This document shows, one piece after another, positions 59,111 to 62,381 of a stretch of 62,381 nt of DNA. The stretch spans positions 1-62,381 of the forward strand of contig JANWWS010000041.1 in assembly GCA_025055765.1 (NCBI GenBank), given 5' to 3'. The notes below the pieces were generated by a model. That model was not told the DNA's origin. It saw nothing but the letters and a program-made list of their open reading frames with translations, and did no database searches. This stretch comes from Leptospiraceae bacterium (GTDB lineage Bacteria > Spirochaetota > Leptospiria > Turneriellales > Turneriellaceae). The position numbers and the translations under genes are program-made. How positions within the stretch are numbered: position 1 is the stretch's first letter; every line of letters begins with the position of its first letter.

Positions 59111-59725
59111 CTAGGATCTAGGATTTTTTATGTGGGCTAGTGTCCAAAACATTTCCGTGGCTATGTATTCGGCACTTTTTCGGTAGGCTTCCTTCTCCTC
59201 AGGGGTGTTGTCCCAATTCTTAGGGTCATCATAGGGTAAAGAAATCCGGCTATCGGCGTTGGGAACAAAGGGACATTCCTTCTCGGCAGTGGAACAAACC
59301 AAAACAGCAGCAAAATGGCTTTGGGGGTTTGCCCCATCACTATATTTTTTGGAGAAAAGTAAAAAGCTTTCCCTTAAACTAAAGACTCGATAAACGGTGT
59401 TACTAGCTCTTCTTTCTACATCCTCTATTAAGAAGCCAAAATCACGTAAAGTTTCCACCACAGTTGGATAGATTTCTGTCACCTGGTTGCCACCTGAAAA
59501 AGTGCGTATACGGCCCGGCATGAGGTAGTCGGCCGCAAGCTGCATGAAAGCTTGCGCAAAGACGGAGCGGCGAGAATTTAAGCTGCAGACAAAGACCAGC
59601 TGGGCTTCTTTTTGGCTTTCAATGTAGTCTGATAATTGCCGTAGGCTTTTTTCTCTCTCTATTGAGGGTACGTATCGAGAGGCAAGTTCTTCTAAGAAAT
59701 GAGCCTTCTCTCGTAATTTTTCCAT
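59111..59725 (-). CDS. Low-molecular-weight phosphatase/arsenate reductase-like protein
   Basis: About 204 residues from ATG 59725 (MEKLREKA); a GTG at 59734 is an alternative start. The CX5R loop is CSLNSRR, Cys47 to Arg53. Later DDPKNWDNTPEEKEAY is the conserved Asp-Pro region and CSTAEKECP carries two Cys of the thioredoxin-coupled arsenate reductase type. A helical N-terminal extension of about 40 residues precedes the loop. Either arsenate reduction or protein tyrosine phosphatase activity is possible. No arsenic transport gene is adjacent. Confidence 0.82.
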   Translation of the reverse strand: MEKLREKAHFLEELASRYVPSIEREKSLRQLSDYIESQKEAQLVFVCSLNSRRSVFAQAFMQLAADYLMPGRIRTFSGGNQVTEIYPTVVETLRDFGFLIEDVERRASNTVYRVFSLRESFLLFSKKYSDGANPQSHFAAVLVCSTAEKECPFVPNADSRISLPYDDPKNWDNTPEEKEAYRKSAEYIATEMFWTLAHIKNPRS

Positions 59726-59956
59726 GAAAATCACATAGCTTGGGCGCCTATTTCTTTGTCAATAGGATTAATACGGGCCACTGCAAATGCCAGAAAGCTC
59801 GTTGCCTTGACAATTAAGACTAGTATTTTTCCTTGTATAATTAAGAGACGAAAATTATTCGACATCGTGGGAGGCCCATACCCTAAGCCCCCCCCTAGGG
59901 AAGATGGCTTAATCCGCCATAATTTGAGTAGTAAAAATAGGCTTTGTGGAGGTTTT
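59726..59956. other. Divergent region and leader of rmuC with C8 tract
   Basis: A 231-bp gap. The perfect -10 hexamer TATAAT is at 59836-59841; TTGACA at 59807-59812 is 23 bp upstream, too far for the usual spacer. CCCTA (59881-59885) pairs with TAGGG (59896-59900) around a C8 tract (59888-59895). ATGGC (59904-59908) pairs with GCCAT (59916-59920). GGAGG precedes the rmuC ATG. Confidence 0.4.
59836..59841 (+). promoter_or_regulatory. -10 hexamer TATAAT for rmuC
   Basis: A perfect TATAAT with TTG just upstream. The -35 region is poor at the normal spacing; TTGACA is 23 bp away. It lies 115 bp before the rmuC ATG. Confidence 0.35.
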
Positions 59957-61126
59957 ATGGACTACCTCATGGAAATAGTCTTTTTGGCGGTGGGACTTCT
60001 ACTCGGCTATCTTTTGGCCCATTTTGCCTCGAAGGCACGCCTTGCTACGGTGGAGACTAAGCTTCAAATGGAGAGGGAACGCAGTGAAAAATTGGAGCGG
60101 GAGTACAGCCTTTTAAGTGAAAAATTTCGCAATGAATTTAAGTCCGTGGCAGATGCCATCTTAGCGGAACAAACCCATAAAGTGCAGGCAGATGCCCATT
60201 TGCGCTTGGAAAGTCTATTGCAACCAGTTCGAGAAAAGCTTGCTGAGTTCCAAAATTCTCTCATTCAGAGTATGGCCCAGCAAAGTCGAGATAATGCTGC
60301 CCTAAAAGAACAAATACGCCAGTTAACAGATTTGAGCAACCAAGTAAGTGCTGAAGCGAATAGGTTAACGAATGCCTTGCGCGCAGATTCCCGAGTCCGT
60401 GGAAATTGGGGCGAGATGGTTTTAGAGCGTCTCCTTGAAGTCTCTGGCCTTGAAAAGGGGATTCACTATGAAACGCAAATCACCCTGGAGGATGAAGAGG
60501 GAAATAAATATCGGCCAGATGTCGTAATTCATTTTCCGGAAAGTAAAGATGTCATTATTGACTCTAAGGTCTCTTTAATAGATTACGAAAAGCTAACGGC
60601 AGCAAGTGATCCTCAAGAACAGGAGAGCTTGCGTCAGCGACACTACAAGGCGCTGGAAAAGCACATGGATGATCTAAGCAAAAAAAATTACACATCTTTA
60701 AAGGGTATTAAAAGCCTCGATATGATTTTCATGTTTGTTCCGATAGAAGGTGCTTTTATGGAGGCTCTGCGCTACAACAGTAGGTTATATGAAGAAGGAT
60801 TTCGCAAGAAAGTGATCATTTTGACGCCAAGCACTCTACTAGCAACCTTGCGGTTGGTGCATACCATGTGGCAGCAGTACAACCAAAATCAAAATGCGCA
60901 AAAGATTGCCGAAGAGGGTGGAAAGCTTTACGATAAATTTTGCCAATTTTTAGATGACTTTAATAAAATTGGCAGTAAACTTTCAGAAGCCAGCAAAGCT
61001 TACGAGGAGGCTCTTAAGAAACTCAGTACCGGCAGGGGTAACTTAATCCAACAGGCAGAAAATTTTCGCCGCCTAGGGATTAGCAACAAGAAAACCCTGC
61101 CTGATACCTTAAGTCAAGAATGGTAG
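59957..61126 (+). CDS. rmuC: DNA recombination protein RmuC
   Basis: RmuC proteins limit inversion and rearrangement at short repeats; they have a nuclease-like core. About 389 residues from ATG 59957 (MDYLMEIVFLAVGLLLGYLL), with GGAGG before it. An open frame upstream to 59756 is unlikely to be coding because it contains the possible -10 and leader hairpins. The order is a membrane anchor (4-24), a coiled coil, then the conserved core RGNWGEMVLERLLEVSGLEKG, VIIDSKVSL and FMFVPIEGAFMEAL. Length is in the family range. Confidence 0.92.
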   Translation: MDYLMEIVFLAVGLLLGYLLAHFASKARLATVETKLQMERERSEKLEREYSLLSEKFRNEFKSVADAILAEQTHKVQADAHLRLESLLQPVREKLAEFQNSLIQSMAQQSRDNAALKEQIRQLTDLSNQVSAEANRLTNALRADSRVRGNWGEMVLERLLEVSGLEKGIHYETQITLEDEEGNKYRPDVVIHFPESKDVIIDSKVSLIDYEKLTAASDPQEQESLRQRHYKALEKHMDDLSKKNYTSLKGIKSLDMIFMFVPIEGAFMEALRYNSRLYEEGFRKKVIILTPSTLLATLRLVHTMWQQYNQNQNAQKIAEEGGKLYDKFCQFLDDFNKIGSKLSEASKAYEEALKKLSTGRGNLIQQAENFRRLGISNKKTLPDTLSQEW

Positions 61127-61175
61127 TTACCAAAAGAGACTCAATCCCCCTTATAGGGAAAGAAAGCCAAGTGAC

Positions 61176-61514
61176 TCAAAATCTAAGGGCAAAGCCGCCA
61201 AGGGCAAAGTTGCCCAGAGTCACTTTGCCTGCCTGCAACTGGGCAAAATTTTCGAAAGAGAGTACAAGCTCCAGGTTTTGGTTTAAGGGATAACACATAT
61301 CGAGCCCAAGTGCGGTAAAGGGCATGCTATTCGTCAAATTTTCATTGCGTAGGCCTGTAACTCTTATCTGCTGCACGACATAGCCTCCACCGAGCCGAGG
61401 GACAAGTCCCACCGTGGCGATAGGGAAGCGAAAGCCCAAGTAGGCACTTCCCATGAGATTTGACGTGGTGATCGCGAGGGCCTCGGTTAAATCGGTGGCT
61501 TTGGGGATATTCAC
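61176..61514 (-). CDS. Barrel-like fragment, 112 residues, no signal peptide
   Basis: A GTG start overlaps the lipoprotein stop by 4 bp (GTGA). The product alternates hydrophobic and polar residues as in beta strands (GSAYLGFRFPIATVGLVPRL) and ends with FALGGFALRF, a terminal Phe like outer-membrane barrels. It lacks a signal peptide, so alone it cannot reach the outer membrane. Adding one T to the TTTT run just before the GTG would join it to the lipoprotein frame and give a 170-residue lipidated barrel. It may be a separate coupled gene, a decayed fragment, or the second half of a gene with an assembly error. Confidence 0.5.
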   Translation of the reverse strand: MNIPKATDLTEALAITTSNLMGSAYLGFRFPIATVGLVPRLGGGYVVQQIRVTGLRNENLTNSMPFTALGLDMCYPLNQNLELVLSFENFAQLQAGKVTLGNFALGGFALRF

Positions 61515-61687
61515 GAAAAGCTGGTTCGAATATTTACATTGCCAATCGTGCTCGTGGAAGCTATGTTAACCCCGCTGGTACAGCCTGCGGTTGTGACCCG
61601 GTGCCGCTCACCTTGTAGGGGGATCGAACTACAGCCAGACACGAAAGCCAGAAGCAAAATTGCCCACAAGCAACACTGTCTGGTCAT
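61511..61687 (-). CDS. Small lipoprotein (or N-terminal half of a broken barrel gene)
   Basis: A 58-residue product starting with ATG at 61687, which overlaps the TGA of the repaired barrel frame by 4 bp (ATGA). The start MTRQCCLWAILLLAFVSGCS ends in a lipobox. The mature part is only about 40 residues (polar, Thr/Ser/Asn rich). Either it is a genuine small lipoprotein, or it is the front of the 61176-61514 frame with a one-base loss. Confidence 0.5.
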   Translation of the reverse strand: MTRQCCLWAILLLAFVSGCSSIPLQGERHRVTTAGCTSGVNIASTSTIGNVNIRTSFS

Positions 61688-62227
61688 AGGTAAAACCCAA
61701 TACGGACTCTGTAGGTAGGTGCGCTCAGGTCTGCGGCAGTATCTCTGGCATACTGCAATACGCTGTAACCGGCTTCCGCCTCCAAAAAAAAACGCTCCCC
61801 AAAAATAGAGGCTCATTCCCGCGATGGCCGTAATCCGTGTGGACCAATTAGCCCTGAGCTGGGAGGTCCCAAAATAGACAAACCCTGCGTCTGCACCGGC
61901 AAAGAAATCCACAGCGTGCCGGGGCAAAAAGTGCAGTGCCATCCCCAGCGTAAGTGGGTAGTATTGCATGCCCGGAGCTGCCAGCGAGAGGGGCAACGCA
62001 GCATTGCCGCGCACCCCGAAATAGTCTGTTGCGAAGAATTCGAACTGCCCTTGCAACAACTGCGCACGATAGGGCTCATGGTTTTCCTGGGACCAGCCAA
62101 GCGCAAGCTTCAGGTTGCCCTTTTGGATGCCATCGTTGAAATCCGCCGCCATCTGGTTTGGTGCCAGCGGGAGAACCTTCGCAAAAAGGGAGAACGCCAA
62201 AAAAATGGCCGATATTTTGTATTGCAT
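61684..62227 (-). pseudogene. Outer-membrane barrel gene with frame break at an A9/T9 tract
   Basis: The frame starts at ATG 62227 with signal MQYKISAIFLAFSLFAKVLP and has beta-barrel character (FFATDYFGVRGNAALPL, GMQYYPLTLGMALHFLPR). At the nine-A tract 61784-61792 (T9 in the coding strand) the frame shifts. Removing one T gives FFLEAEAGYSVLQYARDTAA and the end YRVRIGFYL, a natural barrel C-terminus, for 180 residues in all. The stop of that frame overlaps the next ATG by 4 bp, which strongly supports it. As read, the gene continues into the lipoprotein frame instead. This can be phase variation or a sequencing error. Confidence 0.65.
61784..61792. repeat. Homopolymer A9 (T9 in the coding strand)
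   Basis: Nine A residues inside the barrel gene at the exact point where the frame breaks. Nine-base homopolymers are slippage-prone in replication and also error-prone in some sequencing. The A9 tract in murG (7968-7976) keeps its frame. Confidence 0.7.
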
Positions 62228-62240
62228 GGAGCATTCACAC

Positions 62241-62264
62241 AAACTTGACGCCAGTGTCAAGTTT
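62241..62264. promoter_or_regulatory. Perfect 9-bp dyad upstream of the barrel gene
   Basis: AAACTTGAC (62241-62249) and GTCAAGTTT (62256-62264) are perfect inverse copies with a 6-bp spacer. It ends 14 bp before the ATG at 62227 in the minus-strand sense, so it may control translation or transcription of the barrel operon. Confidence 0.5.
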
Positions 62265-62294
62265 TTGGAGTTAAGGAATTTTGGTTAGGGAATC

Positions 62295-62327
62295 ACCAGA
62301 GGGCAGGGGGAGTTTTTGCCCTCTGGT
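62295..62327. repeat. 11-bp stem hairpin near right edge
   Basis: ACCAGAGGGCA (62295-62305) pairs with TGCCCTCTGGT (62317-62327) around an 11-base loop. A short T-run occurs within the loop, not after the stem, so it is not a standard terminator on either strand. It may end a gene beyond the right edge or be an element in the barrel-operon promoter region. The remaining 54 bases to the edge hold no visible gene. Confidence 0.4.
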
Positions 62328-62381
62328 CTCTGGTATAACTACTTTTGAATGGAGCTAAAGTCGGAAATTGAGGCCCAAAAA

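Follow-up and report, generated by a model that had tools for sequence, protein, structure and literature searches.

Phase variation through homopolymeric tracts is known for surface proteins, and slippage at runs of nine T is known in some bacteria. A different kind of precedent comes from sequence assembly, where chimeric contigs are cited for no less than 0.5% of assemblies from cyanobacteria (PMC10978663). The locus analyzed here is a barrel gene broken at a run of nine T. The window, that is, the whole stretch of DNA analyzed (62,381 bp), is the whole of contig C42 of a 50-contig assembly. With moderate confidence, the broken barrel was interpreted as a foreign fragment at the contig end, resembling the MAG SKYG32 (Leptospiraceae, JANWWX010000052.1), and most likely placed there by a chimeric join of short-read metagenome sequence. 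The features at the right-hand end of the window were as follows.

59756..61126, plus strand: RmuC family gene; it and the barrel fragment below are convergent
61176..61514, minus strand: larger barrel gene read as native, C-terminal third, truncated on its 5' side (62% with G001, 46% with SKYG32 P0004, matched part)
61515..61584, minus strand: gap of 70 nt between the native barrel fragment and the block, matched to no relative
61585..62381, minus strand: terminal block of foreign type, 797 bp, with 96.6% identity to JANWWX010000052.1 bases 944-1739
61585..61687, minus strand: putative lipoprotein alpha/beta-hydrolase gene, first 34 codons, ended by the join (SKYG32 protein, 352 aa)
61684..62227, minus strand: outer-membrane barrel gene (8 strands), broken; 180 codons when intact, as in SKYG32
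61784..61792, minus strand: T9 tract (T8 in SKYG32), F-F-L codons, between model strands 6 and 7
62355..62381, minus strand: SKYG32-type larger barrel gene P0004, last 27 bp, cut by the contig end

The barrel gene starts with an ATG at position 62227 on the minus strand, 154 bp from the contig end, and the run of nine reads as A on the plus strand and T on the minus strand. Read without the shift, the gene has 145 open codons before the tract; past the tract the reading continues out of frame, giving an ORF of 249 aa that ends at 61511. The other frame after the nine T encodes LEAEAGYSVLQYARDTAADLSAPTYRVRIGFYL and then reaches a stop at 61684-61686, which overlaps the ATG of the hydrolase gene (61687-61685) by 4 bp. 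In SKYG32, the barrel is an uninterrupted protein of 180 aa with eight T at the equivalent site. The earlier note had described a 180-codon barrel gene broken by the T9 tract; its coordinates proved exact, with the frame shift at 61784-61792, and the 4-bp overlap of the restored stop with the next ATG does mark a real pair of barrel and hydrolase genes.

Comparison of the block with SKYG32 over 797 bp showed 26 substitutions and the one extra T. Barrel codons 22-180 contained seven synonymous and no nonsynonymous substitutions, three of the seven lying beyond the tract, and codons 2-21 (the signal peptide region) contained 15 substitutions, of which seven were nonsynonymous (each judged singly). 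The shifted frame is real, as had been argued from the sequence of the window, since SKYG32 is intact with eight T and none of the seven differences in codons 22-180 changes an amino acid; either the barrel frame was lost only very recently or the additional T is erroneous. The conservation of the shifted codons would also suit transcriptional slippage or frameshifting across the T9, by which some full barrel would still be made at a tract length that permits slippage in some bacteria; however, a new break or an error explains the conserved codons equally well, and the tract occurred in none of the eight other full-length homologues examined (0/8), which leaves this reading highly improbable. 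Eighteen of the 26 substitutions lie within 76 bp (62165-62240 = L013:1085-1160) covering the intergenic end and the signal peptide, which suggests a patch that is hypervariable or has recombined.

A homologue search of 13 genomes of the family gave a match in 10 and none in three. The match in G011 (L011), the tenth homologue, is a fragment of 69 codons that ends short of the tract site. The other nine homologues are full-length: one from SKYG32, one from each of seven further genomes of the family, and the copy that this genome carries on contig C34. They align end to end with the barrel, both flanks of the tract aligning in 9/9, and their C-terminal GFY is invariant. The AlphaFold2 model of the SKYG32 barrel had a mean pLDDT of 85.5, with residues 21-31 under 50, and showed the elements of an OmpA/OmpW fold, namely a helix resembling a signal peptide (residues 2-21) followed by eight strands. 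Foldseek gave a best E value of 3.2e-6, and the top solved structures among the matches listed were OmpW, OprG, Ail, and OprF. The fold of the intact SKYG32 barrel is like that of OmpW (2f1v; TM 0.63/0.62) and of the OprF N-domain (4rlc; TM 0.58/0.76), but OmpW/OprF/OmpA-type barrels differ from it in sequence, with an identity of 9-18% over the 19 structure matches with E 0.001 or better. The barrel had no family match at cut-off in Pfam and NCBIfam, OmpW included, and its profile had no match in the PDB. The intact protein models as an 8-strand outer-membrane-type barrel, and the claim of an outer-membrane-type product agrees with this model. The tract falls after strand 6 and before strand 7, so the broken product would be without strands 7-8.

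The partner gene carries the Pfam domain Abhydrolase_1 (E 8.2e-24), and its product is probably a lipoprotein, as read from the N-terminus of the SKYG32 protein. An alpha/beta hydrolase directly follows the barrel in 9/9 family genomes with a full-length barrel, an adjacency seen in seven by direct comparison of the stretches and in G008 and G010 by match coordinates only. The SKYG32 hydrolase frame (L013:1478-2692) is open for 53 codons 5' of its ATG, so that in the T9 form the barrel frame and the hydrolase frame make a single ORF. Contig C34 carries a separate, intact barrel-hydrolase pair that belongs to this genome (G000:C34:20371-21925). The remainder of the hydrolase in the block was sought across this genome and was not found; the other hydrolase matches in the genome were the C34 homologue (49%) and partial, weak matches on C6 (34%) and C26 (22%). 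In the phylogenetic tree of the barrel, the block grouped with SKYG32 (97/92), and the C34 copy grouped with G001 (87/92) and G004 (100/100). In the tree of the hydrolase, the C34 copy again grouped with G001 (98/96), and G004 was placed elsewhere on a long branch.

Among the eight full-length homologues other than SKYG32, T runs at the tract site reached 7 at most, with the others at 2 to 6, and none (0/8) had a run of 8 or more. The F-F-L codons under the tract are kept by most homologues, and this coding accounts for the tract without any switch. Of the A/T runs in the window, 30 reach a length of at least 8 and four of these a length of 9, so the length of the tract is not unusual. Each of the remaining three runs of 9 falls within an ORF whose Pfam domains are complete or nearly so; one of these ORFs is the murG-like gene, which does stay in frame over its A9, as had been noted. 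Nothing found marks the T9 run as a conserved switch. These observations bear on phase variation, the mechanism put forward in the earlier note, in which slippage between T8 and T9 would toggle the barrel in a living population. Two related sequences do differ by one T in the tract, and the frame is set by the length of the homopolymer (T9 broken, T8 relative intact), but the tract is absent in 8/8 other full-length homologues, the F-F-L coding explains it otherwise, and it is one of 30 such A/T runs in the window.

Comparison of the window with the SKYG32 contig showed that 61585-62381 was the only matching part besides one match of 65 bp (48/65 bases, 74%), which links two larger barrel genes. 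SKYG32 (G005) is assigned to a different genus from this genome. Other matches of the last 20 kb of the window to the SKYG32 genome were one of 861 bp (65%) and two short ones of 50 and 39 bp (84-85%). The remaining SKYG32 contig had matches of 1.3 kb (68%), 125 bp (73%), and 56 bp (79%) in this genome. The GC content was 52.6% in the block, 44.3% in bases 1-61120, and 53.3% in the SKYG32 contig; the value of the block (0.526) was reached by none of 1216 overlapping windows of 797 bp in 1-61584 (mean 0.443, max 0.524). The segment before the block (61127-61584) already had a GC of 0.496, so that the rise is no clean step and the join is not placed by GC alone. The best relative changes abruptly at one point, as the match to SKYG32 begins at 61585, and both edges of the block lie inside genes. 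When two other high-GC contig ends (2/58) were compared with the family, no SKYG32-like block was found.

The broken barrel is not a whole resident gene: it lies in a foreign-type block, its partner is cut, and the genome has its own intact pair elsewhere. Only synonymous differences occur on either side of the tract outside the signal peptide region, so that the break is recent, a point in favour of phase variation; however, the partner gene is truncated in DNA atypical of the genome, and T9 and T8 come from two genomes, not from two alleles of one population. With an unconserved tract, a truncated partner, and a block from another genus at the contig end, phase variation is rejected as very improbable.

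On the other side of the join, the truncated larger barrel gene (61176..61514) is read as native and, by shared best hits, appears to be the orthologue of P0004, which in SKYG32 lies 127 bp upstream of the barrel. Among the 29 contigs that are at least 3000 bp long, none of the 58 ends carried the N-terminal part of this native barrel; the 21 contigs shorter than 3000 bp read as N. Across the whole genome, P0004 as the query matched C15 (41%, residues 3-160, inside a frame of 400 codons), C49 (34%, residues 1-150, 2 stops), and C6 (23%) only. All three were taken for paralogues. P0004 adjoins the small barrel in SKYG32 only (L013:1-1640); in G001, G004, and G010, the P0004-type gene and the small barrel are on different contigs or outside the same compared stretch. 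The 70-nt stretch was rejected as a barrel relative, since its DNA score was reached by 21, 161, 75, and 76 of 200 shuffles (G001, SKYG32, G010, and G004, respectively); its best protein piece, 8 residues against G001, was reached by 6 of 200 shuffles and was not relied on. Further into the contig, 59111-59734 encodes a protein of 207 aa with weak similarity to low-molecular-weight phosphatase / arsenate reductase, below curated cut-offs.

The partners at the join are not unrelated, as the best hits make the native gene the P0004 orthologue, and this makes a random chimera less likely. A random chimera would land on the P0004 orthologue about once in a thousand, by our own estimate and not by computation; at such a coincidence, real recombination at the locus is plausible. 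A real transfer between genera, in which a SKYG32-like fragment recombined into the P0004 locus of this genome and truncated that gene, would cover the P0004 end, the barrel, and the hydrolase start, with the barrel as a non-functional passenger and the longer tract as early decay. Best hits do make the recipient gene at the join an orthologue of the gene that borders the block in the donor, but the P0004 genes share only 48/65 bases (74%) in the sole DNA match seen, a poor anchor, both block edges cut through genes, and the contig stops with the block, so the far junction is not seen. Transfer would also gain from the low estimated contamination of the bin (0.71%) and from the lack of a long common word that could explain a misjoin, as 61128-61584 and the SKYG32 contig share an exact word of 10 bases at most; a k-mer-driven misjoin in 61128-61584 was rejected on this ground. 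Against it, the junction was matched neither in 17 other genomes of the order nor in viral contigs. Taken together, a real transfer is plausible at less than even chance. A particular form of it, an early-stage insertion in which the barrel-hydrolase fragment entered the orthologous barrel gene via homology and was already drifting by tract slippage, is tentative and rather unlikely.

The structure of the assembly bears on the remaining reading. In eight pairs, contig ends have an overlap of exactly 141 bp in common. By the contig end-overlap rule and the MEGAHIT k-list given in PMC10914622, this length is consistent with a de Bruijn assembly of short reads at k=141. A short-read assembly makes a long-read homopolymer miscount unlikely. 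The left-hand end of C42 is in a 141-bp pair, and its right-hand end had no match among the other 57 contig ends. The alternative of an assembly error in the earlier note was thus nearer to the evidence than phase variation, but a miscounted homopolymer, the form it was given there, is improbable in view of the 141-bp overlaps, and the suspect is the join at 61585. A chimeric join is suggested because the block ends with the contig, both of its edges are inside genes, and an intact resident pair lies elsewhere. On the best reading of the evidence, chimeric assembly is slightly likelier than real transfer.

Other contig ends showed features of their own. Contig C50 (L170, G000:C50:1-17261) has identical 141-bp ends and a GC of 0.453, and is probably a circular element of ~17.1 kb. 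The starts of contigs C26 and C36 (L107, L117) have in common a repeat that recurs every ~72 bp and may represent a CRISPR array split between contigs. The ends of contigs C32, C33, and C38 (L113, L114, L119, L147) share 1.2-1.6 kb at 81-83%, a repeated element.

Under the chimeric reading, 797 bp of DNA from a SKYG32-like Leptospiraceae population of another genus would form the contig end and meet a truncated native barrel gene near 61585, the two presumably having been joined during short-read metagenome assembly. In the source population, the gene would encode an 8-strand barrel, probably made together with the lipoprotein hydrolase. The longer tract would remove strands 7-8 and the C-terminal end, and with this loss the T9 copy should make no working barrel.

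The broken barrel gene is poor evidence for a genetic switch in this organism, and its analysis averts a false claim of phase variation from a contig end. A simple check applies to similar reports: does the suspect gene match the genome of its neighbours? If the join is real, the locus would be a direct case of inter-genus transfer at a barrel-gene locus in uncultured Leptospiraceae. No literature naming SKYG32 or JANWWX was found.

Compared with the described systems, the locus resembles the homopolymer phase variation of surface proteins, both terms of which occur in a paper on Treponema pallidum TprL (PMC7864442), in having a surface-type barrel gene and a difference in homopolymer length, but it differs in its unconserved tract, truncated partner, foreign block, and single tract length per assembly. 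It resembles chimeric MAG contigs (PMC10978663) in that sequences of two organisms are joined inside one contig; it differs from them in that best hits identify the native gene at the join as an orthologue of the neighbour of the barrel in its source, which would be rare in a random chimera.
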